Positions 3,689 to 50,212 of a DNA stretch of 52,581 nucleotides are shown here, in pieces. Source of the stretch: a virus; the IMG/VR virus record IMGVR_UViG_3300033145_001455, positions 1 through 52,581 of that record, one strand, 5' to 3'. Under the pieces are notes generated by a model that was given only the letters and a program-made list of their open reading frames with translations, did not search any database and was not told where the DNA came from. A program made the position numbers and the translations under genes. Each line of letters begins with the position of its first letter. Positions within the stretch are counted from its first letter, which is position 1.

Positions 3689-3689
3689 A

Positions 3690-8910: not shown

Positions 8911-8922
8911 AGGGACAAATAA

Positions 8923-9882: not shown

Positions 9883-10158
9883 ATGGGATTAACAGAAGTA
9901 CAAAAAGCAATAACTGAAATATGTGATGAAATAAAAGATCTTTTAATAAGAAAAAATAAAGCATATGGAAATTCTGCTTTAGATCCAATTAGGGTTTTTA
10001 GTAAATCTGATACAAAAGAACAATTAAATGTGAGAATAGATGATAAGTTGTCGAGAATAAAAGATGGGTATGAATTTGAAGATGAAAAAACAGAAGAAGA
10101 TTTAATAGGGTATTTAATTTTAAAAGAAGTATGGAGAAGGATAAATGAAGCTAACTAA
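9883..10158 (+). CDS. Phage DUF1599-like (Nmad1/MazG-like) protein
   Basis: 91 residues. The sequence KNKAYGNSALDPIRVFSK, followed by VRIDDKLSRIKDGYEF and TEEDLIGYLILKE, is the typical pattern of a small phage family (as I recall DUF1599, also named nucleotide-modification-associated domain 1), thought to be related to MazG-like nucleotide hydrolases. The acidic helix pairs E/D-x-x-D fit a MazG-type metal site. It is a phage gene embedded within the sugar cluster, which supports the cluster being part of the phage genome. Confidence 0.78.
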   Translation: MGLTEVQKAITEICDEIKDLLIRKNKAYGNSALDPIRVFSKSDTKEQLNVRIDDKLSRIKDGYEFEDEKTEEDLIGYLILKEVWRRINEAN

Positions 10159-12204: not shown

Positions 12205-12207
12205 TAG

Positions 12208-12260
12208 AAATAGATAAAACATTAGAAGTGTATGAGAAAGGATTTAAGGAGATAAAATGA
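12208..12260 (+). repeat. Right copy of 53-bp direct repeat
   Basis: Copy of 11253-11305 (51 of 53 bases identical by eye), containing the AAGGAG ribosome site and the ATG of the next small gene. In this copy the bases are non-coding leader, whereas in the left copy they encode the last residues of an aminotransferase. Confidence 0.9.
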
Positions 12261-12460
12261 GACTCTTTACAACAATAACTTGTCCAAACGATGACGCTGA
12301 AGTTATTTATCATATACCGGACGAACCGGGATCTGATACAACACTTTGTGGGTTGAGTGATGTAGTGTATGAAACACACGATATTGATGACTGCCCTATT
12401 ACCTGTGAAAGCTGTTTAAGAGTAGTTAAATGGTGTCGCAATTTAAAATTAGGAGTATAA
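12257..12460 (+). CDS. Small Cys-rich protein, unknown
   Basis: 67 residues. Acidic, with six Cys: TCPNDD, TTLCGLS, DDCPITCESCLRVVKWC. The C-x-x-C ... C arrangement suggests a zinc knuckle. Its leader and ribosome site come from the duplicated 53-base element. Its codon use is a little richer in GC (CCGGACGAACCGGGA) than its neighbours. Similar C-terminal CESCLR-x-V patterns occur in small phage proteins, but no function is known to me. Confidence 0.68.
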   Translation: MRLFTTITCPNDDAEVIYHIPDEPGSDTTLCGLSDVVYETHDIDDCPITCESCLRVVKWCRNLKLGV

Positions 12461-12461
12461 A

Positions 12462-13706
12462 ATGATAGAAATAGATAAAACACAATTAACAAGATTACTT
12501 CATTTAGGATATATAGAATCAGATATAACTGTAGAAAGATTAAAAGTATTACAAACTCATTTTGAAAATAAGATTGATATTTCAGATGAAGAAGCAAAAC
12601 ATCAATTAAAAGAATTGATAAAAGGAGTAATTAGAAAAAAGAATAATATAGGGGCGGGTAGTAATATAGTTTATTCTTCAGGTGTCGATTCTACAGTTAT
12701 ACTTTTAATGGCGATGGAGGTTTTAGGGAATAATGTTAAAGCGGTAATATGTGAAAACAATAAGCAAGTAAAGAGAAATATAACAGAAGCAGATTTGGCA
12801 AGAGAGATATGCAATAAGCTTGGTATAAGAGCAGATGTATATAAGTTATATGGCGAGGCAGAAGTATTTGATAATCTTGATAAAGTAGAAGATTTATTTA
12901 TCAGTAGTAGTATTATTCCAACTACTTTTATTTATAAGAGAGCTGGGAATAATATATTAACTGGTGATGGCGGAGATGAGTTATTTTGCGGATATGATAG
13001 GTACTTATTTGGTTATTATGTTGAGAAGTATAAAGTGTTGAAGAGATTAATTAAACTACTTCCAAACAAAACACAGAGAATGAGAAAAGCAAAGCAGTAT
13101 TTGGATGAAGGTTATGTGGCATTGGCAAGTATATGGAGTGAAGAAGAAGCGGAGCAATTAACGAAATTAATGGATATAAAAAGTAAGGATAGAATTAAAT
13201 ATTATTTGTGGGCTTATCATAAAATGGATGAGAGTTTTTCTGAAAGATTGCATAAGTTTGATGCTCGTATGTTATTTGATATAGCAACGGAATTATATGG
13301 AGTAGAAACAAGAAAAGTAGAAACAGCAAGAAGAATAGCAGGAGTAAAGAATTTGTGCTCACCATTTCTTGATCCAGAAGTTCAAAATTTTTGTACTTCA
13401 CTTCCTATTGATATGAAGTATAGAAATGGAACAAGAAAATGGTTATTAAGGGAGATAATAAAAGATTATATACCAGATTATAATTGTCTTGTAGGAAGTA
13501 AGAAGAGAGGGTTCTCAAATATAGGGTTTGAACAAACTGAGATGGAAAATATGAAGCTTTCTTGTATAAAAGAGTATGTTAGTATAGATTTGGTAGAAAG
13601 AACGTATATGGATCATTTAGGAGGGAAAAGAGACAATAGCGAAAAGTTGTTTAGTTTACTTTTTTTAGATAATATGTTGAAAAATGGATATTTGAAGATA
13701 AAATGA
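12462..13706 (+). CDS. Asparagine synthase-like ATP-pyrophosphatase without glutaminase domain
   Basis: 414 residues. Only the synthase half of an AsnB-type enzyme is present: P-loop YSSGVDST near residue 72, ILTGDGGDELFCGYDRY (about 167-183), and NLCSPFLDPEVQNF in the C-terminal third. The first 60 residues are not a class II glutaminase domain and have no N-terminal Cys. It therefore needs free ammonia or another nucleophile, or borrows a glutaminase. The family adenylates a carboxylate and makes an amide; here probably on a sugar acid. It follows a ribosome site TTAGGAG by seven bases. Confidence 0.88.
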   Translation: MIEIDKTQLTRLLHLGYIESDITVERLKVLQTHFENKIDISDEEAKHQLKELIKGVIRKKNNIGAGSNIVYSSGVDSTVILLMAMEVLGNNVKAVICENNKQVKRNITEADLAREICNKLGIRADVYKLYGEAEVFDNLDKVEDLFISSSIIPTTFIYKRAGNNILTGDGGDELFCGYDRYLFGYYVEKYKVLKRLIKLLPNKTQRMRKAKQYLDEGYVALASIWSEEEAEQLTKLMDIKSKDRIKYYLWAYHKMDESFSERLHKFDARMLFDIATELYGVETRKVETARRIAGVKNLCSPFLDPEVQNFCTSLPIDMKYRNGTRKWLLREIIKDYIPDYNCLVGSKKRGFSNIGFEQTEMENMKLSCIKEYVSIDLVERTYMDHLGGKRDNSEKLFSLLFLDNMLKNGYLKIK

Positions 13707-13773
13707 TTGTTTTTAGTGAAAGTATGTTATGATAAGAATAAAGGGAAATAGATTAGGGGTGAAATATTAAATA

Positions 13774-14757
13774 ATGAAGCTATGTGAGTGTGGTTGTGGA
13801 GAAGAAGTAAAGAAAAGGTTTATACTTGGCCATTATTGGGTTGGTAAAAACAGGTCTGAAGAAACAAAGAATAAAATATCAAAGAAGATAAGCGGCAGAG
13901 AATTATCAGATAAATGGAAAATAAAAATATCAGATAGTAATAAGGGGAGGAAAGTGCCTGATGAAGTAAGAAAAAATATGTCAAAAGCACAGAAAAAATA
14001 TCATAGAGAAAATCCAGAAGTGATGAGCGGTAAGAATAATCCTTCTTATGGTAAAAAAAGATCTGATGAAACAAGAAAGAGGATGTCAGAAGCAAAGATA
14101 AAATATTTTAAAAATCCAGAAAACAGAAAAAAAACATCAAAAACAAAAGAATCTAAAGAGTTTAGGAAGAAAGATATTGAAAAGAGAAGAGGTATTGTTT
14201 TAACCGTCAATGGAGTAAAGAAAAATGATATTTTTATTAATGAAGTTGGGTATACTCCAGCAATATATAAAACTTATGTAAAAAGATTAACTATTGATGA
14301 AGATTCAGTAAAAGGCAAATTTGGATTTTTAATGGTTAAATGCGCTTATTGTGGAAGGTATTATTATCCAAGTGCTATATCTGTAAGTGGAAGGATAACT
14401 GCCTTAAGTGGAAAACATAATGGTGAGTATAGATTGTATTGTTCTGATAATTGTAAAAAGGTTTGTCCTGTATTTAGAAAAGTATTATATCAATCGGATC
14501 GACAATTAGCAACAAGTAGGGAAGTACAACCACAATTAAGGCAGTTGGTTTTGAAAAGAGATAATTATAAATGCCAAAAGTGTGAAAGAAGTATAGAAGA
14601 AGTACAGCTACATTGTCATCATTTTGAAGGAGTAGTTCAAAACCCGATAGAATCAGCAGATGTTGATATGTGTATTACTTTATGTAAAGAATGCCATAAA
14701 GAAGCTCATGGTGAGCTTGGATGCAGATATGTAGACTTACAATGTAAGGAGGAATGA
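13774..14757 (+). CDS. HNH homing-type endonuclease with NUMOD3-like repeats
   Basis: 327 residues, longer than the HNH protein at 3882 but with the same kind of N-terminus (LCECGCGEEVKKRF). Several NUMOD3-like repeats follow (SEETKNKISKKISG, SDETRKRMSEA, SGKNNPSYGKK). A central zinc-ribbon-like part has CAYCGRYY and YCSDNCKKVC. The C-terminal HNH domain has LVLKRDNYKCQKC, LHCHHFEG and MCITLCKECHKEAHGE, with intact His residues. It is a mobile-element gene, not part of sugar metabolism. A 33-residue stretch of its C-terminus is nearly duplicated as a fragment near 37.8 kb. Confidence 0.9.
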   Translation: MKLCECGCGEEVKKRFILGHYWVGKNRSEETKNKISKKISGRELSDKWKIKISDSNKGRKVPDEVRKNMSKAQKKYHRENPEVMSGKNNPSYGKKRSDETRKRMSEAKIKYFKNPENRKKTSKTKESKEFRKKDIEKRRGIVLTVNGVKKNDIFINEVGYTPAIYKTYVKRLTIDEDSVKGKFGFLMVKCAYCGRYYYPSAISVSGRITALSGKHNGEYRLYCSDNCKKVCPVFRKVLYQSDRQLATSREVQPQLRQLVLKRDNYKCQKCERSIEEVQLHCHHFEGVVQNPIESADVDMCITLCKECHKEAHGELGCRYVDLQCKEE

Positions 14758-14760
14758 AAA

Positions 14761-14928
14761 ATGTTTGATATTTTATTATGGTCGGCAACAGTATCGTTTT
14801 TAAGTTTTTATTTTGGAAACTATTATGGGGAAAATATCTACAGAATTTGCAGATATATAAAGTTGGTAATTAAAAGAAAATGGAAGTATATGGGGAATTA
14901 TAAAAAGAATGCAGTCCTTAATGCATAA
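14761..14928 (+). CDS. Small membrane protein, unknown
   Basis: 55 residues (begins MFDILLWSATVSF, ends NAVLNA), preceded by AAGGAGG. The first 20 residues are hydrophobic and probably span the membrane; the rest is basic and would face the cytoplasm by the positive-inside rule. It overlaps the NeuB-like gene by 20 bases. Confidence 0.55.
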   Translation: MFDILLWSATVSFLSFYFGNYYGENIYRICRYIKLVIKRKWKYMGNYKKNAVLNA

Positions 14929-15709
14929 TAAAAGAGCCATTGAGATTATTTGTGAAGCAGGGATAAATCATAACGGGAATATAGAAACAGCCATACAAAT
15001 GATTCATGCTGCCGCTGATAGTGGCGCTTGCACGATTAAGTTCCAAGTTTATAATCCAGCTTCTCGTCCTGATATTGACTCACACCCATTCAAAGAAGTA
15101 CTTATAGATTCACGTTTGACTCAAAGAGATTTATATACTTTAAAAGATGTATGTGATCGTATTAAAATAAACTTTCTTTGTTCGGTTTTTGATGTAGATA
15201 AAGTACAATGGCTTGAAGAGGTAGGGGTAGAGCGTTACAAGATTGGAAGTAAATCTTTATATGATGTTGAATTAATAGAAGCGATACAGAAAACTAATAA
15301 GCCGTACATTATAAGTCTTGGTTTATTTTCTGCTGAGAAAGAGGAAAGAGAAAAGTATAAAGTAAAAATACTTGATGAATCAGTAATGGAAACATGGAAG
15401 AGAATTAAGCGAGAAAGAAGTGAACACCTATATTGTAACTTTAAATATCCAACAGAAATAAAAGATGTGTATTTTGATGATTCTGATTTTATAGGTTCTG
15501 AAGCAGGAGGGTTTGATGGTTTTTCAGATCATACTACTTCTATATTTCCATCAATATTCGCAATGAGTTTAGGAGCAAAGATTATTGAGAAGCACTGTAC
15601 TATGGACAAATCGGCAGAAGGGCCAGACCATAAGTTTAGTATTGATTTTGATGAGCTGGCTTTATTATGTAAAGCAAGAGACGAAGTGGAGGAGATATTA
15701 TATGGCTGA
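14909..15709 (+). CDS. neuB: NeuB-family nonulosonic acid synthase lacking SAF domain
   Basis: 266 residues. Family members condense phosphoenolpyruvate with an N-acyl hexosamine to give sialic, legionaminic or pseudaminic acid. Visible motifs are IICEAGINHNG (about residues 13-23), TIKFQVYNP, FLCSVFD, YKIGSKSLYD, GFSDHTTSIFPSIFA and AKIIEKHCTMD...GPDHKFS, covering the whole TIM-barrel active-site set. The protein ends near residue 266, whereas NeuB/LegI/PseI enzymes are about 340 and end in an antifreeze-like SAF domain that caps the partner subunit; that domain is absent. An ATG at 14921 is an alternative start. The reader should treat the exact sugar as unknown. Confidence 0.88.
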   Translation: MQSLMHNKRAIEIICEAGINHNGNIETAIQMIHAAADSGACTIKFQVYNPASRPDIDSHPFKEVLIDSRLTQRDLYTLKDVCDRIKINFLCSVFDVDKVQWLEEVGVERYKIGSKSLYDVELIEAIQKTNKPYIISLGLFSAEKEEREKYKVKILDESVMETWKRIKRERSEHLYCNFKYPTEIKDVYFDDSDFIGSEAGGFDGFSDHTTSIFPSIFAMSLGAKIIEKHCTMDKSAEGPDHKFSIDFDELALLCKARDEVEEILYG

Positions 15710-16103
15710 TAAAGAAGTAAAGATAACAAAAATAAAGAAAGAGGGGAAAGAAAGAGAAAAAGTTAATAATGAAATTAATTCTGGTTTGTATTCTGGCATT
15801 AAATTAGAAACAGATAACTATTGGGGTGAAACAGAGGCTAAAGATAAAAAAGAATCTGATTTTTCTAATTATGGTCTTTGTGCTACTTGTAAGCATTTTG
15901 AATGTGCAATAACACAATTAAGTAAAACAGTTTTTGCTAAATGTGTCGCATATGAAGTTAGATTAAGAAGTAATGATCCTGTGGAGGAATGTACAAATTA
16001 TACAGAGAAAGGAAGATTGACTTTAAGAGAGATGAAAGAAATTGCATATCTTATTGATGTAGAGGACGTAGAAGAAATTGGGTTTTTAAATAAGGAGAAG
16101 TAA
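15702..16103 (+). CDS. Cys-containing small protein, unknown
   Basis: 133 residues from the ATG at 15702, chosen because GGAGGAG stands seven bases upstream and it overlaps the NeuB-like gene by only eight bases. The N-terminal 60 residues are highly charged. The centre carries CATCKHFEC ... FAKCVAYEVRL ... EECTNYTEK, the C-x-x-C-x-x-(F/W) ... C layout of rubredoxin-like knuckles also seen in other small proteins of this window. The C-terminus is helical and acidic. No function recognised. Confidence 0.68.
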   Translation: MADKEVKITKIKKEGKEREKVNNEINSGLYSGIKLETDNYWGETEAKDKKESDFSNYGLCATCKHFECAITQLSKTVFAKCVAYEVRLRSNDPVEECTNYTEKGRLTLREMKEIAYLIDVEDVEEIGFLNKEK

Positions 16104-16104
16104 A

Positions 16105-16299
16105 ATGAGAAAGAAGGGCCAATATGAAATTTATAAAGATGTTACAGGTAGATTTAGGTGGAGGTTGAGAAATGAATCCGGTAAAATATTATGTATATCG
16201 TTTAAGCAATTTGAAGTATTGGAAGATTGTGAAGAAAATCTTGAAGAAGTAATGTTTTGTAGTAAAACAAAAAGGTTAGTTAGATGCTATATTCCATAA
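16105..16299 (+). CDS. DUF1508/YegP-like small protein
   Basis: 64 residues behind AAGGAG. YEIYKDVTGRFRWRLRNESG is the typical N-terminal strand pattern of the DUF1508 (YegP) family: (F/Y)EIYKD-x-x-G-x-(F/Y)RWRL. The family's second strand pair is only partly visible. YegP-type proteins are small and of unknown function, common in bacteria and occasionally in phages. It overlaps the methyltransferase gene by 16 bases. Confidence 0.72.
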   Translation: MRKKGQYEIYKDVTGRFRWRLRNESGKILCISFKQFEVLEDCEENLEEVMFCSKTKRLVRCYIP

Positions 16300-17147
16300 A
16301 ACAGAAATTAAAAGAAACAAAAACAGTAAAGAAAGCATACGATAATTTTAGAGAGAGAAGTGTTTATTCTGCTTTAAAACAACAGCGTTTACTTGCAAGG
16401 TTCAATCAAATCAAACGGCTTGATCCAGATATATCAAATCAATATACTTCTTCTAATATAGATACTTCATATTTACAAACTAAAGTGTTGGGTCTTCATG
16501 CTTTTCAGATGGCTTTATTTGGATTGTTTATTAATGGTCAGAATAGAAAAGAATGGAGTATAACTGATCTTGGTGATTCATCTGGTAATCACATTATGTA
16601 TATAAAGAATTTATTTAGTAAGTTTAAATGGGATACTTTGAGTGTAAATCTTGATCAGAAAGCAGTAGATAAAATAAGAAGTAAAGGGCTAAACGCTATT
16701 GCTTGTTCTATTGAAGATTATTATGAATATGAAAAAGATTATAGAAATCAAATAATAACATTGTTTCAAACATTAGAGCATTTAGAAAATCCTATTAGCA
16801 TATTAAAAGGAGTAAAAGAAAATTTAAAACCAGAAGCATTTATAATTACAGTTCCGTTTGTAAGGAGAAGTAAGGTTGGATTACATTATTTAAGAGAGAA
16901 CTTAAAAAGTGATTTCTTTAATAAAGTTCCATCACCAGAGAATATTCATATTTTTGAATTATCACCTGATGATTGGGAATTGTTGTTTGAGTATTGTGGT
17001 TGGGAAGTAAAACATAGTTTGGTTTATTATCAATATAAAAGAAGGATACCGATAATAAGTAGATTATTAAGATGGTATTGGAGTGCGTTTGACTTTGAGG
17101 GGTTTTACGGATGTATTTTAACAAAAAACAAAGGAGGAGAAGATTAA
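16284..17147 (+). CDS. Class I SAM-dependent methyltransferase-like protein
   Basis: 287 residues. WSITDLGDSSGNHIMYIK (about residues 91-108) fits motif I of a Rossmann methyltransferase, though with D-S-S-G instead of G-x-G-x-G; LSVNLDQKAV matches motif II with its acidic residue; TLFQTLEHLENPISILKGV and LKPEAFIITVPF match the later strands of Methyltransf_11/23 enzymes. The N-terminal 50 residues are basic and may bind a partner. Substrate probably a sugar in the glycan. No transmembrane segment. Start overlaps the previous gene. Confidence 0.78.
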   Translation: MLYSIKQKLKETKTVKKAYDNFRERSVYSALKQQRLLARFNQIKRLDPDISNQYTSSNIDTSYLQTKVLGLHAFQMALFGLFINGQNRKEWSITDLGDSSGNHIMYIKNLFSKFKWDTLSVNLDQKAVDKIRSKGLNAIACSIEDYYEYEKDYRNQIITLFQTLEHLENPISILKGVKENLKPEAFIITVPFVRRSKVGLHYLRENLKSDFFNKVPSPENIHIFELSPDDWELLFEYCGWEVKHSLVYYQYKRRIPIISRLLRWYWSAFDFEGFYGCILTKNKGGED

Positions 17148-24377: not shown

Positions 24378-25249
24378 AGATAATAAAAAAAGTATTACCA
24401 ATGAATCATAATATATTTTATTTTGGAGATCTTCATGTAGGAAGTATATTACATTATAGAAAAGGATTTTTAAAATTAAAAGAAATAGTTTGTAATGAGT
24501 ATGATGGGATACCAGCCAAAGATAATTATTTAGTGGATCATGGAGATCAATTTGAAGCAATAGCAATAGATGATAAAAGATTTGATCCATTAATGCATGC
24601 AGAAAAAAAAGATTTTTATGTTGATCATCAATACGAAGAAGTAAAGAAATTATATGAGCCGATAAAAGAAAAAATATTGGCAATATTATATGGGAATCAT
24701 TTACAGAAGCACAAAGGTATATGTAATTATGCAAAGAAATTAGCTGGAGAATTAGAAGTAGAGTATGGTACATGGTCTTGTAAAATACATTATATAAATA
24801 ATAATGGGAGTTTAATGTATAAATCATATCATACCCATGGAAGAAAACAAGTGAATAGTTATGCTGATGATCCAAAGAGAAGAAAAGTTGGTAAGCAATT
24901 AATATTAAAAAGACAGTTAAGAGAAAAATTCGGAGATTGTGTAGTTATGTGCAAAGGTCATACTCATAAATTAATAGTATGTCCACCTGAAAGAGAATTA
25001 TACCTTACGGATAGTGGTAGAAAAACAGTTCAGAATTATACTTCTCATACGGAGGGACAAAATAAACAGTATATACACCCAGATAATAGGTGGTATGTAA
25101 ATACAGGAAGTTTTATGAAAATGTATGCAGATGATCAAGAAGTATCGGGGTATGCGGAAATGGCAGAATATGATCCGGTAGAACTTGGATTTGTTGTTGG
25201 CAAATGCAGAAATGGGAAAATAGTAGATGTGAAAGAAATAATTTTATGA
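24374..25249 (+). CDS. Metallophosphoesterase (calcineurin-like)
   Basis: 291 residues starting at TTG (24374), which overlaps the previous stop and follows a run of G bases; an ATG at 24401 is the alternative start. Metal-site motifs in order: FGDLHVGS (D-x-H), HGDQFE (G-D), YGNHLQKH (G-N-H), and KGHTHKL (G-H-x-H), all as in dinuclear phosphoesterases. DNA or nucleotide substrates are possible. Such genes are frequent beside phage terminase genes. The final ATGA overlaps the large terminase start. Confidence 0.88.
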
Positions 25250-26943
25250 AAGTAAAAGAATACAAAACAAATAAACTTATAGAAGGGATACTTAATTTTA
25301 ATCTTGCTACTAAAGCTACACAAACTAAGAGCATGAATAGAAGAAAAGTAAATGAGTTTATAGAAGAGTATTTAATTCGTGAAGACTATGATGATTTTGT
25401 GAGAAGCTTTTTAGAAGAGTTGATTTCACAAGGTGGGCCAAAGCATCCAGACATACTTCATTTTTATATACGGTTGTTCTTAGGAATAAATATACCAAGA
25501 AAGAAAATATGCCCGGAACATCATGCACCATTTACTTATGTATCAAATATGTTTTTTGAGAAGATAAGAAATAGTATAGCGTTTGCAAATAGAACTGGTG
25601 GTAAGACATTGAATATTGCTATACTTAATCATTGTGACATGATATTTAAAGAAGGCTGTGAAATTGCATCGGCAGGGGCTACAAAAGATCAGGCAGCAAA
25701 GATGTATAAATACTTCACAGGATTTCACAACAAGAACCAATATTTACAGGATTACTATTCAAGAGAACCTACCAAGCAGTATTCAGAATACAAAAACTTA
25801 TCATCATTAGAGATTATTACGGGAAGTGTTAAAGGGTTAAATTCTCCGCATCCACAAAAAGCAAGAATAGATGAAGTAGAGTTAATGGATTGGGAAGTAT
25901 TGCAAGAAGGATTGTCGATGTCAATATCTTCTAATGAGATTATGGGTCAGAATACTTTTTCTAGTACTAGAAAATACGAAGCAGGAACAATGCAGAAGTT
26001 ATTGGATGTAGCAAGTGATCAGCCTGATAGATTCAAAGTTTATGGTTGGTGTATTTGGGAAGTAATGGAGAAGTGTACAAGAGAATGTAAGGATGATAAG
26101 CAACATGGTACTTGCCCAATATTAGAACAATGTAATGGCAAAGCAAAGAAGTGTGCCGGATTTTATAAGGTGGATGATTTTATTGATAAGGCAGTACTTC
26201 TTGACAAAGATGTTTTAGAAGCTCAATGGTTTAATAAAAAACCGAGTAGACAGATTTATGTATATGGGGATTATTGGGATAGGGAAGTAAATTTTATTCC
26301 AAGAAAAGAATTAAAAGGAGAAGTTTATAAAGTAGGGGCTATTGATTTTGGGTCTTCTCCGGGACATCCATTTGTATTTAAGATTTATTTATGTGATTGT
26401 AATGAGTATAAGAAAGCTGTTGAGAGATCAGAAGCGGATGAAATAATAAGAGAGAAAGTAAAGTATTACTTATCATATGAGTATAGGTCTGGGAAAGATA
26501 CTATAGAAGGTCATGCAAATAAAATAAAAGATGCTCCGGGCTTTACTGCTGATATGCCGATATTCGCAGATCCTTCAGCAAAACAACAAAGAATAGATCT
26601 GGAAGAGTTATATGGAATAAATACTTATGAAGCGGATAATGCAGTTGAAGCAGGAATAGAGAAGGTAAGAAGCCATTTGCAAAATGGGCAAGCAGGATCA
26701 CATTACTTTATATTTGATGACTATTATGATTGTGAAGAAATAGACATAGTAGGAACTGATGTGGAGTTTGAAAGGTATAAGTACAGAAGAACAAAAGAAG
26801 GGCATATAAATAAAAAAGAGCCGTTAAAAACAGATGATCATGGAATGGATTGTGACAGGTATGCAATCTCAAGTAGTATTGTCTATTTTAGAGAAGTTTT
26901 TTTTCCAATAGAGGAGGATATAAGTGGCGGATTTTGGGAGTAG
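25246..26943 (+). CDS. Terminase large subunit
   Basis: 565 residues from the ATG at 25246, which overlaps the previous stop by ATGA; an earlier in-frame start would add 14 residues inside the upstream gene. ATPase domain: Walker A-like NRTGGKTL at about residues 115-122 and Walker [11 protein letters not shown] with D209-E210. Nuclease domain: [13 protein letters not shown] (D367), [10 protein letters not shown] near residue 445 and [12 protein letters not shown] near 535, giving the RNase H-like acidic residues. This is the motor that cuts and pumps phage DNA into the head. The Cys-rich insert [15 protein letters not shown] (about residues 280-300) may bind zinc. Confidence 0.93.
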
Positions 26944-39420: not shown

Positions 39421-39939
39421 ATGGCTGCACATAATAGACACATTAGAGAAGTAAAGAATCAAGTTTTAGCACCAGTAAAAGGCGGAACGGTAATTGAAGC
39501 TGGTGATTTAGTATTTAGGAACGCTCTTGGCAGTATGACAATAGCTGCTGACAATTATACTTACCCTTTTAACGATGCGGTAAATTCTGCTTCTGAAACT
39601 ACTGAATTGTTATATAGTGTTCATGTTAATTTCCTTGGTGTTGCAATGGAGAGTTCACCTTCTGGCACTACGGAGAATATTTCTATAGCTACTGCTGGCA
39701 AGATGAGATTCCCGCTATATAGGATTGGTGGTGTAACTATTGGTCAAAAGGTAAGTGCTGTATCTACTTTCGCTTCTGCTGCAGTTGCAGGAGTTTCTAA
39801 AGATACAGTTATTCAGTTAGCGACTACTCCGGGGACAACTGCGTACTTAGGTTATGTTTCTAAAACTGAATCCGGCGCAAGTTTTGTTGATTTTCAAATC
39901 AGAACTGCTTTTGGTTCTGGGACATTGATTACTACATAA
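39421..39939 (+). CDS. Head decoration-like protein (paralogue A)
   Basis: 172 residues. MAAHNRHIREVKNQ, EAGDLVFRNA, FLGVAMESSPSGTTENISIA and SKTESGASFVDFQIRT are shared nearly word for word with the next gene. Beta-rich, no signal peptide. It sits between the protease/scaffold and the major capsid, the usual place for decoration (head fibre) proteins. The second copy is almost the same length. Confidence 0.72.
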   Translation: MAAHNRHIREVKNQVLAPVKGGTVIEAGDLVFRNALGSMTIAADNYTYPFNDAVNSASETTELLYSVHVNFLGVAMESSPSGTTENISIATAGKMRFPLYRIGGVTIGQKVSAVSTFASAAVAGVSKDTVIQLATTPGTTAYLGYVSKTESGASFVDFQIRTAFGSGTLITT

Positions 39940-39967
39940 AAAATAATTGAAAGGAGAGATAAAATAA

Positions 39968-40486
39968 ATGGCTGCACATAATAGGCACATTAGAGGGGAA
40001 AGAGAAGAAGTTTTAGCATCTATAAAGGGTAGTACAGTAGTAGAAGCTGGTGATTTAATGTTTTTAAATAATTCAGATGGGGTAGTAGGGGCAAGTTCAT
40101 CTGCTGATAATTATGCATATCCGTTTAGTTCTGCTGCAAATAGTGCTTCTGTTGCAACTGGAATTATAGAAGCGTTATATACTCAATTTCTTGGTGTTGC
40201 GATGGAGAGTTCACCTTCTGGTACTACGGAGAATATTTCTATAGCAACAGATGGTGTATTTAAATATCCGCTATATAGGATTGGTGCTGTAACTATTGGG
40301 GCAACAGTTTCTTCAGTTTCAGTTCTTACTTCTGGAACTGGTGTTTCTGATCAGGTTGTATTTCAATCTACTACTGCTCCGGGTAGTACTGCTTTATTGG
40401 GTTATATTGTTAAAACTGAGTCAGGTGCGAGTTTTGTTGATTTTCAAATCAGAACTGCTTTTGGTTCTAGTGGATTGGCTACATAA
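39968..40486 (+). CDS. Head decoration-like protein (paralogue B)
   Basis: 172 residues, very similar to the previous protein: MAAHNRHIRGEREEV, FLGVAMESSPSGTTENISIA, KTESGASFVDFQIRTAFGS. The middle has diverged (ADNYAYPFSSAANSASVA). AAAGGAGAG upstream. The pair is a tandem duplication. Confidence 0.72.
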   Translation: MAAHNRHIRGEREEVLASIKGSTVVEAGDLMFLNNSDGVVGASSSADNYAYPFSSAANSASVATGIIEALYTQFLGVAMESSPSGTTENISIATDGVFKYPLYRIGAVTIGATVSSVSVLTSGTGVSDQVVFQSTTAPGSTALLGYIVKTESGASFVDFQIRTAFGSSGLAT

Positions 40487-40498
40487 GGAGTAAAGTAA

Positions 40499-41008
40499 TT
40501 GGCTAATGTAAACAGATATATAGGCGGTAAAAGAGATTCACTTTTGATTACTGTCAATGCATCTGTAACTGTTCAAATAGGGGATCTAATGTTTTTGGAT
40601 AAGATAGATAATCTTAGGAATAATGGTAGTAGTACTGCTGATAGCACTGCTTATCCAATTGAGCATTTAAGGATTTCTGGAGCATCATTAGAAGCGAATA
40701 AGGTAGCGTTAAAATCTTATTTTCTTGGGGTAGCAATGGATGATAAAGATGGGATAAGTAATGGAGCTGATTTGAATATCCCAATAGCTACTTCAGGAAT
40801 ATTTGAGTATGATTTAAAGCCGGGAAGAACAGTTGAAATAGGAGAGTACTTTGCTGCATCTGGTACAACTGTTTCTTCAAATATGTTTAATCAGAAAGTA
40901 ATGAAAACTTCTGATGAAACAAAAGCGATAGGATATTTTTCAGAAAGAAAGTTACATGCCAATACTGCTGAAGGATTTATTCGGACATCTATTGGTAATA
41001 AAATTTGA
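40499..41008 (+). CDS. Head decoration-like protein (paralogue C, TTG start)
   Basis: 169 residues starting at TTG (40499) behind AAGGAG. MANVNRYIGGKRDSLLI, QIGDLMFLDKI, YFLGVAMDDKDG and IGYFSERKLHAN show a more distant member of the same family as the two preceding genes: the GDLMFL and FLGVAM elements are kept. Confidence 0.7.
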   Translation: MANVNRYIGGKRDSLLITVNASVTVQIGDLMFLDKIDNLRNNGSSTADSTAYPIEHLRISGASLEANKVALKSYFLGVAMDDKDGISNGADLNIPIATSGIFEYDLKPGRTVEIGEYFAASGTTVSSNMFNQKVMKTSDETKAIGYFSERKLHANTAEGFIRTSIGNKI

Positions 41009-41025: not shown

Positions 41026-42099
41026 ATGTTTAATAAAAGTGGAATGGCATTAAAAGATTTGATGGAAGCACAGGGCGAGGCTGGGACAGTAGCGGTAATT
41101 GAGGATTTACTTGAAAAGAAAAAACTGACCCCAGAAGATTTTTCTATTCGTGAAATTTGGGAGGCATGTTGTGAAGAAGGAGATATTCATGAAGCTATTA
41201 CTGCTGCATCTTTCCCTAAGCTTACTGGTGCTTTAATTAATAGTAAGATGATTATGGCGTATGAGGCATTCCCTAAAGTTGGTAAAAGTCTAGTGCAGAC
41301 TATTAAAAGTACTGTGCAGAAAGATACTTTTGCTGGAGTAACTGCCAATAGTGATGTGGCGGATGAAGTAGGGGAAGGGATGAAATATAATGATTCCAGT
41401 TTTACCGAGAAGTATGTCAACATTGATAATGTAAAATTTGGTAAAAAGATTGCTCTTACTGAAGAAGCAATTTTCTTTGATAAAACTGGTGCTCTTTTAC
41501 GAGAGGCAAATAAAACTGGAGAAGGTGTTGCTGTTTATGAAGAAAGAAAAATTTTAAGAACAGTAATGGATTTAGATACTTTAGCATATCAACCTTCTGG
41601 TGTTCCTACTGCTTTTTATGCGGCTGGGAATAACAACTTGATTACTGCTAATGCTTTTAATGAGGCTGGTTTAGAAGCAGTAATGGTAAAGGCCCAAACG
41701 ATTAAGGATGATGCGCTTGGAACGGGTGATGGCAATTTTATTAATATTGATTTGAATAATGCTACTTTACTTATTCCAATTCAGCTTCAGTTGGAAGCAT
41801 GGCAGATGACGAATAGTGCGTTAGTTCCTGAGTCTGCTGAAAATGCCAAAAACTTTTTCCAGAATAAATTAAAAATTGTTACTTCACCTTATGTTACCAA
41901 TGACAGTGCTACTACTTGGTACTGGGGGAATTTTGAAAAAGACTTTGTATGGACAGAAGTATGGCCGATGCAAGTTCTTTCTGCTCCTGCTTCTCATGAT
42001 TCGTCTTTTGATAATGATATAAAAGCGATCTTTAAAGCAAGAGCTTATGGCGGTTGTGGCGCACTTGATTATAAGCATAGTTTTAAATGCACGAGCTAA
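41026..42099 (+). CDS. Major capsid protein
   Basis: 357 residues, preceded by AAGGAGG. FPKLTGALINSKMIMAYEAF, EVGEGMKYNDSSFTEKYVNI, GKKIALTEEAIFFDKTG and TLLIPIQLQLEAWQMTN are typical of the Mu gpT/HK97-fold type major capsid proteins with a helical N-terminal arm (residues 1-70). It follows the decoration genes and is followed by a strong hairpin, as expected for a highly expressed gene. No HK97-like crosslinking can be judged from sequence. Confidence 0.85.
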   Translation: MFNKSGMALKDLMEAQGEAGTVAVIEDLLEKKKLTPEDFSIREIWEACCEEGDIHEAITAASFPKLTGALINSKMIMAYEAFPKVGKSLVQTIKSTVQKDTFAGVTANSDVADEVGEGMKYNDSSFTEKYVNIDNVKFGKKIALTEEAIFFDKTGALLREANKTGEGVAVYEERKILRTVMDLDTLAYQPSGVPTAFYAAGNNNLITANAFNEAGLEAVMVKAQTIKDDALGTGDGNFINIDLNNATLLIPIQLQLEAWQMTNSALVPESAENAKNFFQNKLKIVTSPYVTNDSATTWYWGNFEKDFVWTEVWPMQVLSAPASHDSSFDNDIKAIFKARAYGGCGALDYKHSFKCTS

Positions 42100-42207: not shown

Positions 42208-42534
42208 ATGGCAAGAGGTTCAAGGTTTCCGAGTGGAGTTAGTCTTTCTGGAGGTTATCCAGTAGGTTTTACTTCTCAAAATTATAAGATTAGTGGTGGT
42301 ACTGTTGCATGGGCTGGATCAGCACTTAGTATTACACATGGGATGACAACTTTACATAATATTTCAGTAACTCGTTATATGGCGAGTGCTGTTTCTGTTG
42401 GGGAAGTAGTTATTACTGAGCCAAGTGTTGTTTCTGGTAAGGTTTCTGCTACATTAAATTTTTTAACTGCGGCTGGGGCTGTTTCTGTTGCTACTTCTGG
42501 TGGGACACTTTACTGGTTGGCATTTGGTGTTTAA
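42208..42534 (+). CDS. Decoration-like protein, paralogue 1
   Basis: 108 residues, behind AAAGGAGG. Small beta-rich protein (SGVSLSGGYPVG, ITHGMTTLHN, RYMASAVSVGEVVI, SGGTLYWLAFGV) with Gly/Ser/Ala. Nearly the same start and end as the next gene, so tandem duplicates. A surface decoration or fibre role is likely from its size and place after the capsid gene. Confidence 0.7.
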   Translation: MARGSRFPSGVSLSGGYPVGFTSQNYKISGGTVAWAGSALSITHGMTTLHNISVTRYMASAVSVGEVVITEPSVVSGKVSATLNFLTAAGAVSVATSGGTLYWLAFGV

Positions 42535-42591
42535 TTTTTAATGCTGATGGCTAAAGTTCCCCCATTATAAAATAAAAGGAGGGGTTTAATT

Positions 42592-42918
42592 ATGGCAAGA
42601 GGGACAAGATACCCAAGCGGAGTTAGTCTTTCTGGAGGTTATCCAGTCGGTTATACTGCCGAAAATTATAAACTTAGTGGCGGTACTGCTGCATGGGCTG
42701 GGACTACTCTTGGGATTACACATGGGATGAAAACTTTATTAGGATTTGCAGCAGGGCGATATATGGCAAGTGCTGTTTCTACAATTGAAGTAGTTATTTC
42801 AACACCAAATATTACTACTAATGGGGTTTCATTGACTTTCCAAGCTATGACTGATGCAAATGGAGCTACAATGGCTATATCTGGTGGAACTGTTTATTGG
42901 ACGGCGTTTGGCGTTTAA
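42592..42918 (+). CDS. Decoration-like protein, paralogue 2
   Basis: 108 residues, same length as the preceding protein. Shared: MARG-x-R(F/Y)PSGVSLSGGYP, ITHGM-x-TL, RYMASAVS, SGGT-x-YW-x-AFGV. The centre has changed, which would allow different surfaces. Strong AAAGGAGGGG ribosome site. Confidence 0.7.
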   Translation: MARGTRYPSGVSLSGGYPVGYTAENYKLSGGTAAWAGTTLGITHGMKTLLGFAAGRYMASAVSTIEVVISTPNITTNGVSLTFQAMTDANGATMAISGGTVYWTAFGV

Positions 42919-44941: not shown

Positions 44942-45385
44942 ATGATTAATTGGAATAAATATAAATATTTTAAAGAAGAAGACTTTGCAGATCCATTGTC
45001 AAAAGGTTCTGGGAATATGATAGATGAGAGATTACTTTTCTTGTTAGACGAGTTAAGAATTAGATTTGGATGGCCAATGATATTCCATTCAATAGTAGGC
45101 GGGTGTGTAGATGTTAATGGAAGTCACGGGCATGCTAAAAAGAGTTACCATTTAACCTTGATGGGGGCGAAAGCGGTTGATTTTCACTTTCAGACAACTA
45201 AAGTTCATGCAAGAAAACAGTTTTTAGAAGTAATCAAAACAGGGTTTACAGGAATAGGAGTGTATTTTGATTGGTCATGGAATAACAATTTATTGCCAAT
45301 AGGATTTCATGTCGATTTACGATCTGAAAATAAAACACAAATATGGAAGAGAAGTAGTGGCAGGTATATATACTTATTAAAATGA
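44942..45385 (+). CDS. M15-family peptidase, endolysin-like
   Basis: 147 residues. Zinc-site motifs of M15 peptidases: YHLTLMGAKAVDFHF with H70 and D80, and FHVDLR with H123 and D125. The N-terminal part (FKEEDFADPLSKGSGNMIDE) is the usual M15/DUF882 opening. These enzymes cut peptidoglycan stem peptides. It has no signal peptide, so needs a holin, and membrane-protein genes lie just upstream. It overlaps the next gene by ATGA. It may also act in tail entry. Confidence 0.82.
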   Translation: MINWNKYKYFKEEDFADPLSKGSGNMIDERLLFLLDELRIRFGWPMIFHSIVGGCVDVNGSHGHAKKSYHLTLMGAKAVDFHFQTTKVHARKQFLEVIKTGFTGIGVYFDWSWNNNLLPIGFHVDLRSENKTQIWKRSSGRYIYLLK

Positions 45386-46278
45386 AATATTCGACAATTA
45401 TAAAATTAGGGTTATCTTTTTTACTTACATCTATTATACTGATGGGAATAATTTTTGGATATATATGGATTAAAAGTTATATGGGTGTAGTAGAAAAGAA
45501 AACAGAATTATTGACAAAAAGTATTGTAGCTGTAAATATACAAGAGAATAATCGGTTATTAAATAACAGAATAAAAGAGCTTGAAGAAGTAATTAAAAAT
45601 AAAGATGGTAAGATAAACGATATAGGAAAATCAATAGCCGAATTGAAAGTAGTAATAAGTAAGAATAAAAAAAGTGATCATATATATAAGGAAGATACTG
45701 GGGATGCTAATGAGCAGTATTTTAAAATGATTTATAGTAAAGATACAGATGGGAATGAATATCCTTTAGCATGGGCGATATTCAAATATAAAGACAAGAA
45801 ATTCACAACAGGCATAGTACCAGAATGGGAATTAAATAGTCAAATAGTATTAACAGAAGGGAAAGAGAACGAAGCAATATTTGAAACTTGGTTTGAAAAC
45901 AATAGCAGAAAAGAAACAAAGGGCAAGAAGTATCCATTAAAATTAAATTCTGTTGAATGGATAAGAAGAGAAATAAAAAATAAAAGTTTTATGATGAACC
46001 TAAGATTATCGCTTAGTGGAATAATTACTATGGAAGATATTTATCCTGTGTTAGATTTAAGTTTATTTAGTTATGGAAAAACAAAAATAGATATGGATTG
46101 GAAATTTATTTCATTTGGAATTGGCGGAAGTAATAATTTAAAGTTTGATTTTACACCTGTTGAATGGAATGTAGGCAAAATACTTCCATTAATAAATAAT
46201 TTATTTATTGGGCCAACAATTGAAACAGATATGTATTTTGATTATACTTTTGGAATTAAAGGAGCTGTACCATTTTAA
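45382..46278 (+). CDS. Membrane-anchored protein with coiled coil and beta domain
   Basis: 298 residues, overlapping the peptidase stop by ATGA. An N-terminal transmembrane segment (IKLGLSFLLTSIILMGIIFGYIW) is followed by a coiled coil (LLNNRIKELEEVIKN) and a beta-rich C-terminal domain with repeated alternating hydrophobic residues, ending in Phe (FGIKGAVPF), as outer-membrane strands do. This could span the periplasm like a spanin or act as an inner-outer membrane bridge; no known family was recognised. Confidence 0.65.
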   Translation: MKYSTIIKLGLSFLLTSIILMGIIFGYIWIKSYMGVVEKKTELLTKSIVAVNIQENNRLLNNRIKELEEVIKNKDGKINDIGKSIAELKVVISKNKKSDHIYKEDTGDANEQYFKMIYSKDTDGNEYPLAWAIFKYKDKKFTTGIVPEWELNSQIVLTEGKENEAIFETWFENNSRKETKGKKYPLKLNSVEWIRREIKNKSFMMNLRLSLSGIITMEDIYPVLDLSLFSYGKTKIDMDWKFISFGIGGSNNLKFDFTPVEWNVGKILPLINNLFIGPTIETDMYFDYTFGIKGAVPF

Positions 46279-46324: not shown

Positions 46325-46341
46325 TAACGAAAGGAGTAATC

Positions 46342-48477
46342 TTGGAACTGTATTTATTAATAGCGTTTGGATTAACAATGTTGTGTATACCTTTATTTTT
46401 TGCACCACTCAAATTTATGGATGGATATTTACTTCCTCAATTTGGAATCGGAGCAATTGGGATTTCAGTAAGTTTAATTTTTTATTTAATGTTAGGGAAG
46501 TTTAATTTAAGTTTTACTGTTTTATTAGTAATGTTGTATTTTTTTTATTTAGTTTTAACTTGCTCATGGTCAACAGTACAACATAATTCCATGAGAGAAT
46601 TGCCATTAATATTTTGTTGTTTAATTGGATTTGTAATAGCAATTACTTTGTTTGAGAATAAGGAGAATATGGTAGCAATTTCTTTAATAGCTTTTGTAGT
46701 TTCAATGTTTACTTCTTTATATGGAATAGGACAGAAGTTTTTATTTGATCCGTTATTCCCAGAGAGGCTTGCATCTCAAGAGCGGTTATATAAAGGGTTA
46801 CCAAAAATACAAATACCAAAATGCTTTCAGAATAAAAAGTTTAAAGATAGCAGAGTAATAAGTACAATGGGAAACACTAATTTTGCTGCTGGTTTCTTTT
46901 TAACGACTATTCCTTTTTTGATATATTTATCATTTGAAGTTTCTATGTTTTTCTTACTTTCTATTTTGGTAGTAATTACTGTAATAATTTTAACAGAATC
47001 AAGAGCTGGCTTACTTTCGCTATTGGGATCTGCTGTATTTTTCCTCATACTTATCTCAAAAAGAGGGCTGGTATTTGACGGAATTACAGCGGTTTGGTGT
47101 TATCTTCCGATAGAACTTTGCCTTGCTGGTATTATTTTTCTTTTGATAATGGGTTCTTATTATATTTTAAATTCTAAAAAACTTAAAGCTATATATAAAA
47201 GCCTATCGGAAGATAACCCTTTGAATACGATGCTTGATTTTGAGCATGGAGATAAGTATCATCCTATTGCTCATCTAAGGTATCGTATAAGATATGTAAG
47301 TGCGGCAGTAGAATTAATACTGCGAAAACCATTACACGGATATGGATTAAGAACATACAGAAAGGAGGTTTATTCAGCACAAGGAAGGTTAAATATAAAA
47401 GACAAAGGAGAGTTTTTAGGAGAAGCATATCAAACGCCACAACCAAGAGAAGTACATAATGATTTTGTAGAGAATTTTGTTGAAGGTGGTATTATTGGTG
47501 GTGGTTTGTTTCTTGTTATTTTTGGAATGGTATTTTTTGGAGGAGTATTAAACACAGAAGTAGGAAGTACAAAAGATTTTCTTTTGATTTCTGCTTTATG
47601 TGCTGGCATTACTGGAATAGCAATAGACGCTATATTTTTCTTTCCGTTCAGAGTTGCAGCATCTGGTTTATACTTTTGGGTTGCATTGGCATTACTAGCA
47701 GGAGTTAGTACAACTATTGTTACAAGTGCTTTTGTTATACATCCAATATTTATTTTATTTGTCTTTTTTATATTGGTGGGTTTTATTTGGGAGGGAGTAA
47801 TAAAGCCGAATCTTGGAAATTACTTTTTCACCAAATATAATTTTGCAAAGTACGGGAATAAAAAAGAAGGGTATTTAATGAAAGCGTTGAAGTACTGCCC
47901 AAGGGAAACAATATTTAGGACTCATGCTATGATTGGGTATGCAAATTTATTTCCAGAAGAAGCAGAAGAACAAGCAGAGACAATGAGGCAGCATTATGAT
48001 GGAATGACTCCAGCGTGGGTTATGGCATTTAATTCTGGAAGTGCAAAAAAGAAATTAAAGCAGTATAAAGATGCGATGAAATTTTTTAGTGAATCATTAT
48101 TTTATTTACCAAGTTTTAATGAATCAAGAATGGAAGCAGTAAGTATACAACCATATTTACCACTACAAATTAGAAGGAGGTTTATTTTGAAAAAGATTGG
48201 ACAAAAAAATGAAGTAACATTAACTAATATGATGCAGAATATAGAAATGATTAAACAACAATCACAGCAGCAATTACAGAATAATGAAACTAATATGTTG
48301 AATATAGTATTAGGAGAAGCAAGAAGATTAAACATTCCTGAAGATTGGCCTTTTGATTTTGAAACAAAACAATTCTATGAGCCAAACGAAATACCAGGAG
48401 GGAAGACAATTATGGAGGCTGGCCCTGCAAGAGTAAAAATATTATGGGTGGCAAATCAACCTTTACCACAAATATAA
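46342..48477 (+). CDS. O-antigen ligase/polymerase-like membrane protein (Wzy_C)
   Basis: 711 residues from a TTG start (46342) after AAAGGAG. About ten or more hydrophobic segments cover residues 1-510. The Wzy_C signature is visible: TESRAGLLSLLGSAVFF (about 219), GYGLRTYRKE (about 333), and HNDFVENFVEGGIIGG from H372 in the large periplasmic loop. The C-terminal 200 residues are cytoplasmic or periplasmic helical repeats (KQYKDAMKFFSESL), TPR-like, ending in a Gln-rich stretch. WaaL/Wzy enzymes link or polymerise O-antigen on a lipid carrier. A copy in a phage virion/lysis region is unusual and suggests host surface change. Confidence 0.85.
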   Translation: MELYLLIAFGLTMLCIPLFFAPLKFMDGYLLPQFGIGAIGISVSLIFYLMLGKFNLSFTVLLVMLYFFYLVLTCSWSTVQHNSMRELPLIFCCLIGFVIAITLFENKENMVAISLIAFVVSMFTSLYGIGQKFLFDPLFPERLASQERLYKGLPKIQIPKCFQNKKFKDSRVISTMGNTNFAAGFFLTTIPFLIYLSFEVSMFFLLSILVVITVIILTESRAGLLSLLGSAVFFLILISKRGLVFDGITAVWCYLPIELCLAGIIFLLIMGSYYILNSKKLKAIYKSLSEDNPLNTMLDFEHGDKYHPIAHLRYRIRYVSAAVELILRKPLHGYGLRTYRKEVYSAQGRLNIKDKGEFLGEAYQTPQPREVHNDFVENFVEGGIIGGGLFLVIFGMVFFGGVLNTEVGSTKDFLLISALCAGITGIAIDAIFFFPFRVAASGLYFWVALALLAGVSTTIVTSAFVIHPIFILFVFFILVGFIWEGVIKPNLGNYFFTKYNFAKYGNKKEGYLMKALKYCPRETIFRTHAMIGYANLFPEEAEEQAETMRQHYDGMTPAWVMAFNSGSAKKKLKQYKDAMKFFSESLFYLPSFNESRMEAVSIQPYLPLQIRRRFILKKIGQKNEVTLTNMMQNIEMIKQQSQQQLQNNETNMLNIVLGEARRLNIPEDWPFDFETKQFYEPNEIPGGKTIMEAGPARVKILWVANQPLPQI

Positions 48478-48489: not shown

Positions 48490-48825
48490 TTGAGCAACAA
48501 AAAAAGAAAAGATGGGATTATAACAGAAGATACAGAACCAGAAGTAAATGAAGATTTTACTAAAAAAGAAACCAAGCAAAAAGAAGTTGAACAGGAACCA
48601 GTAGTAGAAGAAAAGAAAAAAGCAATACAAATTAGGACTGATTACTTAGGTAAGTTTGTTCCTCAGATGGCAGATATATTAGACGAGGGGAATTTTAAAC
48701 AGCAGTTAGAAAGAAAGCTTACTAGGAAAACAGATTTAATTTCTGTTGCTCATTTAGTATCAAATATTCATATACTTCAAACTTTAAGAGATATTTTAAA
48801 AGTGCTAAAAGAAGAGGGGAAGTAA
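48490..48825 (+). CDS. Hypothetical protein (TTG start)
   Basis: 111 residues from TTG (48490), behind AAAAGGAG. N-terminal half charged and disordered (Glu/Lys-rich), C-terminal half (TDLISVAHLVSNIHILQTL) helical. No function recognised. Confidence 0.62.
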   Translation: MSNKKRKDGIITEDTEPEVNEDFTKKETKQKEVEQEPVVEEKKKAIQIRTDYLGKFVPQMADILDEGNFKQQLERKLTRKTDLISVAHLVSNIHILQTLRDILKVLKEEGK

Positions 48826-49203
48826 ATGGCATTTACACATGATCCAACTACATCGGCGGGCTTATGCCGCACAAATGTTGCGGATACAGATAGTACAGAT
48901 TATGTTTTTGAAGATGCAGAAATAGATGCAGTATTAGATCAAAATAGTGATGATGTTTGGAGTGCTTCAGCAGATTTATGTAGGGCATTAGCAGCTAAGT
49001 ATGCTAAAGAAGCATTTGATCTTGGTTTAGGTAAAGGAGATATTAAGCTTGATCGTAGAAAAAAAGCAGAGTACTATCTTCAATTAGCAAAAACATATGA
49101 AGGTAAAAGCTCTTCTTCTGACGTAATAGAGTATATGGATCATTACAATATTAATGTTACAGGTTTGGGCGTCGATGATTCGGAGTATATTGGAGATACT
49201 TAA
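48826..49203 (+). CDS. Head-tail connector-like protein
   Basis: 125 residues, starting one base after the previous stop. CRTNVADTDSTDYVFEDAEI near residues 14-33, DDVWSASADLCRALAAKYA, and DRRKKAEYYLQLAKTYEG fit gp6-like connector proteins of siphophages, a small helical family that docks under the portal. TAATG-type overlap with the next gene. Confidence 0.75.
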   Translation: MAFTHDPTTSAGLCRTNVADTDSTDYVFEDAEIDAVLDQNSDDVWSASADLCRALAAKYAKEAFDLGLGKGDIKLDRRKKAEYYLQLAKTYEGKSSSSDVIEYMDHYNINVTGLGVDDSEYIGDT

Positions 49204-49643
49204 TGTCTATATTATCTGAACAAGAAATAAGTAGTATTATAGATGATATAAGTACAATAGTAGGTGACGATGTTATTAGTACTACCATTAATCTTTTACA
49301 AAGTGGAAGTACAGTCGATACATGGTCGCCTACTTCTCAAACTATACCTTCAATGTGGACAATATCGAGTGTTAGTTCATTTAAAGGAAGCTATGGTTTA
49401 AATGAACTAGAAGAAATGAATAGAACAAGGGCAGGTGTAAATGTTGAAAAATCAGGGGCGTTGGTCGAAATGGGTGATGTCAAATTTATCTTGATGGTAA
49501 ATGATACAACGGGGATATTATCTGTTGACGATATGATAACTGAATCCGGGAGTACTTTTCAGGCGGCAACTACATATACAATTAGGGTGATAGATAAAGA
49601 TCCTCTTAACATTTGCTATTTCATTGGTTGTCGGGCACTATAA
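49203..49643 (+). CDS. Head-tail stopper-like protein
   Basis: 146 residues, placed between connector and HK97-gp10-like genes. Beta-rich C-terminal part (VKFILMVNDTTGIL, TYTIRVIDKDPLNI) with a helical N-terminus. In this position phages encode the neck (stopper) protein. There is no decisive motif. Confidence 0.62.
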   Translation: MSILSEQEISSIIDDISTIVGDDVISTTINLLQSGSTVDTWSPTSQTIPSMWTISSVSSFKGSYGLNELEEMNRTRAGVNVEKSGALVEMGDVKFILMVNDTTGILSVDDMITESGSTFQAATTYTIRVIDKDPLNICYFIGCRAL

Positions 49644-49645
49644 TT

Positions 49646-50212
49646 ATGGCAAAGCAAGCAATAACGATGAAAATGGAAACAAAAGATTTTAACAGAAGTA
49701 TTAAAAGATTTATGAGAACAACAGATCTTGCAGATGAAATAGTATTAAAGAAAATAGCTTTTGATTTATTAAGTAATATTTTAAAACCAGAACCAGATGG
49801 AACACATCCGACTGATACCGGCCAAGCAAGGGCCGGGTGGCATGCAGCAGTAAGTGGGTTAGGAAAAAGTTTTAATATGGATAGTAGATTAAAAAGCACA
49901 AGTAAAGTTTCGGAAGGAAAAAGACAAGGAAAGTATAAAGCGAAACTTACAGGAACAAAGAAGTATATTGAAATGGTGAATGCTGTTGGGCATATAGTGT
50001 TTTTGGAATACGGGTGGAGTAAACAAGCACCTCTTGGGATGGTAAGAATATCAATGAGAAAAATGAGGGGCAAATTACCGAAAGAATTAGGGAGAGAGTA
50101 TAAAAAAGCATGGAGAAAGATGAGGAGAAAAGGTATAAGATCAGTTAAGTATTCAGAAGGCAAAAAAGGAATAAAAGATTTATTAGGGACGTATACTACT
50201 TTTGAAGATTAA
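49646..50212 (+). CDS. HK97 gp10-like neck/tail protein
   Basis: 188 residues from the ATG at 49646 (an in-frame ATG at 49613 lies inside the preceding gene). HPTDTGQARAGWHAAVSGLG, then YIEMVNAVGHIVFLEYGWS and PLGMVRISMRKM are the core pattern of HK97 gp10-like proteins, which assist the head-tail junction. Strongly basic C-terminus. Confidence 0.82.
   Translation: MAKQAITMKMETKDFNRSIKRFMRTTDLADEIVLKKIAFDLLSNILKPEPDGTHPTDTGQARAGWHAAVSGLGKSFNMDSRLKSTSKVSEGKRQGKYKAKLTGTKKYIEMVNAVGHIVFLEYGWSKQAPLGMVRISMRKMRGKLPKELGREYKKAWRKMRRKGIRSVKYSEGKKGIKDLLGTYTTFED

Follow-up and report, generated by a model that had tools for sequence, protein, structure and literature searches.

A WaaL-fold, Wzy_C-type membrane enzyme, a candidate glycan ligase, occupies a fixed capsid-adjacent place in a lineage of tailed phages

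What is known of phage-encoded O-antigen enzymes concerns mainly temperate phages, in which the genes are optional and alter the lysogen. Among the closest described phage proteins are the Wzy-beta proteins of Pseudomonas phage D3, epsilon15 and VarioGold (p25), which are polytopic proteins of 386-411 aa without a C-terminal extension. A Wzy_C motif has been reported for those of D3 and epsilon15 (PMC4815439), and p25 of VarioGold, which resembles the D3 gene, is presumed to be expressed during lysogeny (PMC9658991). Both D3 and VarioGold are temperate phages in which the gene stands as a unit of its own, opposite in strand to the late genes. An annotated O-antigen ligase (ORF43, 419 aa) is also encoded on the late strand of an isolated phage, Halomonas phage YPHTV-1, in the tail module and adjoining an acyltransferase, and has been proposed to be an auxiliary metabolic gene (PMC10305713). 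The cellular points of reference are WaaL (CAZy GT121; PDB 7tpg; E. coli), which is encoded in the LPS locus, and the PglL-type protein O-oligosaccharyltransferases of the same Pfam family. The WaaL residues R215, R288 and H338 are reported to be important for that enzyme and to be conserved in PglL (PMC3643930). Further, ligases carry a His at the acceptor site, where all polymerase families of the clan (GT-C1) but GT127 have Asp or Glu (PMC10920833).

The locus analyzed here combines the enzyme type of these systems with a different genomic setting. It lies in an IMG/VR virus record of 52,581 bases, the whole of which we refer to as the window; the record is a fragment whose first position falls inside a gene (Table 1). 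The gene of interest is real and intact-looking. It had been called, in a preliminary description made from the sequence alone, as a TTG-started open reading frame of 711 residues, and this call holds at its exact coordinates. The strong ribosome site (AAAGGAGT) stands about 7 bases 5' of the TTG, and a start codon (TTG, ATG, or GTG) is found at the same aligned residue in 15 relatives, where it is mostly preceded by a clear purine-rich ribosome site. No homologue of the 711-aa protein was found by tblastn in isolated phages or plasmids, and PHROGs gave no match of note; because no PHROG family covers its clade, standard phage annotation misses these genes.

Table 1. Features of the window referred to in the text
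Feature	Coordinates	Strand	Basis or remark
Sugar module	222..17144	+	Pfam; homologues in four large relatives
Terminase large subunit	25204..26943	+	Position and similarity; homologues at 47-55% in four large relatives
Three tandem ~170-aa paralogues 5' of capsid gene (decoration-like)	39421..41008	+	Protein cluster 5
Major capsid protein	41026..42099	+	Pfam PF25209, PHROGs; used as phage-lineage marker
Two ~108-aa paralogues 3' of capsid gene	42208..42918	+	Protein cluster 2
M15-type endolysin	44942..45385	+	PHROG lysis 1.8e-9; weak Pfam M15
One-TM coiled-coil envelope protein, possibly spanin-like (putative)	45382..46278	+	Homologue adjoins M15-like gene in L176
Shine-Dalgarno-type sequence	46329..46336	+	Precedes TTG start of candidate ligase gene
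Wzy_C / WaaL-fold membrane enzyme gene, candidate glycan ligase	46342..48477	+	711 aa, TTG start; Pfam, ribosome site, structure, family alignment
Wzy_C domain (residues 207-391; contains R221, R315, H372)	46960..47514	+	Pfam; hhalign to E. coli WaaL
TPR domain (residues about 487-608) after 13th membrane helix (about 468-486)	47800..48165	+	Model; structural match Z about 14
Small ORF 3' of candidate ligase gene	48490..48825	+	Similar-sized small ORF in most relatives
Head-tail adaptor-like gene, 125 aa, downstream boundary marker	48826..49203	+	Cluster 3; PHROG 1732/4020, function unnamed
Head closure (Hc1-like) and neck genes	49203..50212	+	PHROG Hc1 E 0.0023; PHROG Neck1 E 5.5e-17

The assignment to an enzyme class draws on several lines of evidence. 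The Pfam Wzy_C domain (PF04932) was recovered at 63.1 bits (E 3.4e-17) against a curated cut-off of 31.7, which was passed in 20 of 20 related records. An AlphaFold model built with 19 homologues (pLDDT 82.8, pTM 0.76) had WaaL (7tpg) as its sole Foldseek match below 1e-3 in the PDB, and a second-look structural alignment to 7tpg_B (Z 23.6, 360 residues, rmsd 5.0) covered model residues 1-459 and showed the WaaL fold with its long periplasmic loop near the C-terminal half. Sequence similarity to WaaL is very low: hhalign against E. coli K-12 WaaL gave an E of 0.0013 with a low HH-suite probability (18.8%), pairing R221, R315 and H372 with R215, R288 and H338, respectively (numbering counted from the alignment). 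All three residues are invariant across 19 sequences with 27-51% identity to the window protein, as are R340, Y344, Q347, P366, P368, R369, E370, N373, D374, E377, and E381, and the invariant positions are mostly residues of the catalytic periplasmic loop. Since phmmer with the single protein matched no PDB chain and the PDB matches of the family profile were almost all TPR proteins, the link to WaaL rests on fold and hhalign. Against BFVD, Foldseek returned nothing at E <= 0.001, which is not evidence of absence. We thus regard the class, an O-antigen-ligase/Wzy_C-type (WaaL-fold) membrane enzyme, as very secure, in agreement with the preliminary description, which had inferred an O-antigen ligase/polymerase-like protein and had named a loss of the conserved periplasmic His/Arg residues or a match to a non-glycan transporter as grounds for doubting it. 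A reading as a bicarbonate transporter was rejected, given that IctB (TIGR00947) scored 20.2 bits against a cut-off of 366.4. Within the class, the acceptor position is a His in every aligned member rather than the polymerase-type Asp or Glu, and H372, as placed by these alignments, favours a ligase over a Wzy polymerase.

Hydropathy gave 12 hydrophobic segments in the 711-aa protein, and the model has 13 membrane-type helices followed by the TPR domain, bearing out a polytopic membrane protein. Relative to WaaL, the protein adds the 13th membrane helix, the TPR domain, and a tail, and both the TPR domain and the C-terminal tail are conserved in the family alignment. If the protein is oriented as WaaL is, the TPR domain would be on the catalytic periplasmic side. 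Positive-inside counting does not settle the side, because most Lys and Arg residues are on the catalytic side and also occur right after helix 13. The C-terminal TPR-like extension had been thought unusual; this does not hold, as the same Wzy_C-then-TPR order occurs in cellular Planctomycetota proteins (for example, L245, L246, and L253), although these are remote (at most 76 bits to the phage profile) and have longer C-terminal regions.

The main finding is the position of the gene across a phage lineage. Single-protein scans of viral and genome contigs with 8-residue patterns gave no matches, the patterns probably being too specific, and the family was instead found with a degenerate DNA pattern for HN[DE][FY]x5ExGxxG followed by an alignment scan, which together yielded at least 19 viral loci of the clade. 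Across 84,980 prokaryote genomes, one contig with the clade's own motifs, among the matches listed, encoded a relative. This contig (L142; VRUG01000009.1; 111 kb), binned as Planctomycetota, carries terminase, portal, capsid, NeuB, and Wzy_C genes, and is itself a phage contig because its terminase, portal, and capsid genes are those of the lineage. The next best match to the clade profile in 392 Planctomycetota genomes scored 76 bits, versus 894 for L142. The bin that holds L142 is the sole hint of a host, and the contig, with a G+C of 0.39, departs from two of the three further stretches sampled in that bin (0.45, 0.45, and 0.36). Phages of the lineage appear to be about 100-112 kb in size, the four large relatives measuring 101-112 kb.

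The common gene order in the lineage is protease, decoration, major capsid protein, small genes, Wzy_C, small gene, adaptor, head closure, neck, and tail. All 17 contigs that include both the capsid and the adaptor gene (15 distinct; three are near-identical) have the Wzy_C gene between the two. It shares its strand with the virion genes, and the next ORF often begins within a few bases of it or overlaps it (a 12-base gap in the window, a 4-base overlap in some relatives). The G+C of the relatives' loci ranges from 0.32 to 0.50, which argues that the arrangement is old. A scan with the capsid protein recovered 24 loci whose capsid belongs to the same clade and 56 loci from sister lineages. The Wzy_C gene is present in 17 of the 24, the other seven ending before the adaptor; one of these seven, L187, has tail-tip-like genes after the small head genes and may be a true exception. 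It is present in none of the 56 sister-lineage loci (some of them short), several of which have the adaptor directly after the capsid gene. The gene is a fixed member of the virion operon in this lineage rather than an occasional insertion. Lysis genes stand just upstream in several members, namely the M15-type endolysin in the window, its homologue in L176, and a phage lysozyme in L127. As for the immediate flanks, the head-tail connector genes reported downstream are supported by the head closure and neck matches, while the "membrane-bridging" label given to the upstream gene has no family support (no match in Pfam, PHROG, or other profile searches). Copy numbers of the small genes around the capsid gene vary, with relatives having two or three of the ~170-aa paralogue and one or two of the ~108-aa paralogue.

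A sugar module distant from the ligase gene, as had been described, is confirmed by Pfam; its genes, 25-30 kb from the ligase gene, encode AsnB-type, carbamoyltransferase, CTP-transferase, DegT, GT2, class-III aminotransferase, Gfo/Idh, NeuB, and methyltransferase proteins. The pairing of sugar synthesis with a candidate ligase extends beyond the window: all four large relatives encode homologues of NeuB, the CTP-transferase, and GT2, in a module that lies upstream of the terminase and shares its strand with the capsid and Wzy_C genes (in G003 this order holds across the contig ends, assuming a circularly permuted map). On the coding strand of these four relatives, no clear polytopic membrane protein other than the Wzy_C protein is encoded. 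Neither a Wzx-type flippase family nor an integrase family was found in seven lineage contigs, which are possibly incomplete. The sugar genes may serve another purpose, for example, the modification of virion proteins. HNH-type endonuclease-like ORFs also occur within the module (3882-4472 and 13774-14757; cluster 10), and relatives of them lie near capsid and Wzy_C genes of other phages.

These observations bear on the comparison with serotype-converting phages. The preliminary description implied a conversion of the D3 kind; this is not supported, given the lack of an integrase match in the seven, possibly incomplete contigs and the separate, opposite-strand location of the D3 gene. A profile comparison with D3 Wzy-beta gave no significant similarity (hhalign, E 0.29). 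Its remark that such phages use different enzymes was inexact, given the Wzy_C motif reported for D3 and epsilon15 (PMC4815439). The YPHTV-1 ligase, for its part, is known from one isolate, has another gene position, is shorter, and is remote from the window protein in the tree.

We consider the best reading, at a probability of about 0.5, to be a glycan ligase that is enzymatically active, is made late, and remodels the surface of the host. The protein would be an inner-membrane glycan ligase of the WaaL/GT-C1 kind, made late with the virion and lysis genes. The sugar module would make a CMP-activated nonulosonate-type sugar, which a phage glycosyltransferase may add to the host's lipid-linked glycan; a host flippase would then be needed to export the modified glycan, since none was found in the phage. 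At the periplasmic face, the enzyme would take the glycan on its lipid pyrophosphate, with R221 and R315 holding the pyrophosphate and H372 activating the acceptor to which the glycan is joined. The TPR domain, which probably faces the same way, may have a role in binding either the acceptor or a partner. The likely pay-off would be a host surface altered late in infection, such that progeny are not bound to the dying cell, debris, or infected neighbors.

A gene in a virion operon could also act in something other than surface remodeling. We think it unlikely, if worth weighing, that the protein is a PglL-like protein O-oligosaccharyltransferase acting on a host or phage protein in the periplasm or at the surface, which would be recruited through the TPR domain. 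WaaL and PglL share family and the R/R/H set (PMC3643930), no LPS core genes are nearby, and a TPR domain on the catalytic side would suit protein binding. By motif spacing rather than structural alignment, P330, G333, and G335 also match the P313/G316/G318 spacing of PglL (a common P-x-x-G-x-G motif), and N178/N180 fall where PglL has Q178/N180. However, the PglL_A motif (PF15864) had no Pfam match in the protein, the positions of H400 and E404 are D429 and F433 by spacing, the family does not keep the PglL residues, and no obvious acceptor gene is found next door. The possibility that the enzyme is a Wzy-type polymerase changing the linkage or length of the host O-antigen, like D3 beta-Wzy, appears still more doubtful: it has the shared Pfam domain in its favour, and against it the His at the acceptor position (PMC10920833), the insignificant hhalign comparison with D3 Wzy-beta, and the lineage contigs in which no integrase was found.

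The invariant place in the virion operon, the adjoining lysis genes, and the conserved TPR domain and tail could also be expected of a protein that is no longer mainly an enzyme and serves as a membrane anchor or an assembly or lysis factor, such as a head docking site or a lysis-timing protein. We hold this to be improbable, as an anchor would not need the residues that are invariant, which are mostly those of the catalytic periplasmic loop, and, in other phages, comparable sites are taken up by shorter Wzy_C genes that lack the long C-terminal extension. Least probable, in our estimate, is an ordinary host-fitness (auxiliary metabolic) gene, for which the YPHTV-1 ligase provides an isolate precedent (PMC10305713). 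Such a gene would be expected to be sporadic, whereas this one has a single place across the lineage and recurs beside other capsid genes, and its cellular homologues in the 392 Planctomycetota genomes are remote.

A capsid-adjacent position recurs for Wzy_C genes of other viruses. With the clade profile, we found Wzy_C-like genes, mostly shorter, in at least some 55 other viral contigs; because many hmmalign columns were gapped when these proteins were aligned to the profile, conservation in them was counted only where aligned. Upstream sequence was available for 39 loci, and in these the three preceding ORFs most often matched major head and scaffold proteins in PHROG, the head families being phrog_9953/14242, 1328, 371, 3437/267, and 212. 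A capsid gene lay within three ORFs upstream in 25 of the 39, among the matches listed, against 9.0 +/- 2.3 expected from random same-strand ORFs of the same loci, which never reached 25 in 20,000 draws. At the corresponding place, no ligase is annotated in four relatives, from public records, of the capsid type seen most often (Myxococcus phage Mx8, Stenotrophomonas phage BUCT555, a Bradyrhizobium phage, and one metagenomic phage). In a tree of 63 proteins, the window clade held together (100/99) and grouped with the Wzy_C genes of T7-type phages (99/93); two further viral groups fell in other parts of the tree. This topology, in which many branches are long, suggests exchange of Wzy_C between phage lineages and more than one origin.

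We give roughly even odds to a broader proposal, in which many uncultured tailed phages share a general strategy of encoding a late glycan ligase in the virion operon. Wzy_C genes would circulate between lineages and repeatedly become fixed just downstream of unrelated capsid genes, and the host surface would be changed as infection ends, not during lysogeny. In the part of the literature covered, we found no report of phage O-antigen ligases beside capsid genes. Here, an O-antigen-type enzyme is an invariable part of a capsid-to-tail operon, in a lineage where no integrase was found, and it recurs by unrelated capsid genes; this placement in many uncultured phages suggests a widespread, unstudied late change of the host surface. 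The clade itself represents divergent WaaL-fold enzymes with unexplored glycan specificity. If they are active, their recurrence would suggest that late glycan ligation is a common phage function and would offer a direct way to test how lytic phages avoid losing progeny to host debris.

Several further features were observed in the window and its relatives. A TIR-domain gene (44233-44937; Pfam CAP12-PCTIR_TIR, 8.8e-15; PADLOC TIR effectors and PDC-S35) is flanked by a one-TM gene and the endolysin within the late region, which is an odd site for a defence-type effector. At 33158-36619, a 1153-aa MuF-type protein has added metalloprotease-like parts, and the length of this gene product among relatives ranges from about 350 to over 1600 aa. 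Two adjoining small lipoprotein-like genes are found at 17406-18106, the second with an HExxH-like motif, and a similar lipoprotein lies just upstream of the Wzy_C gene in L125. Finally, in L173 (9989-13307), the capsid gene is read as two segments, of 214 and 139 aa, close to an HNH/GIY-type ORF, which may reflect an intron or intein insertion.
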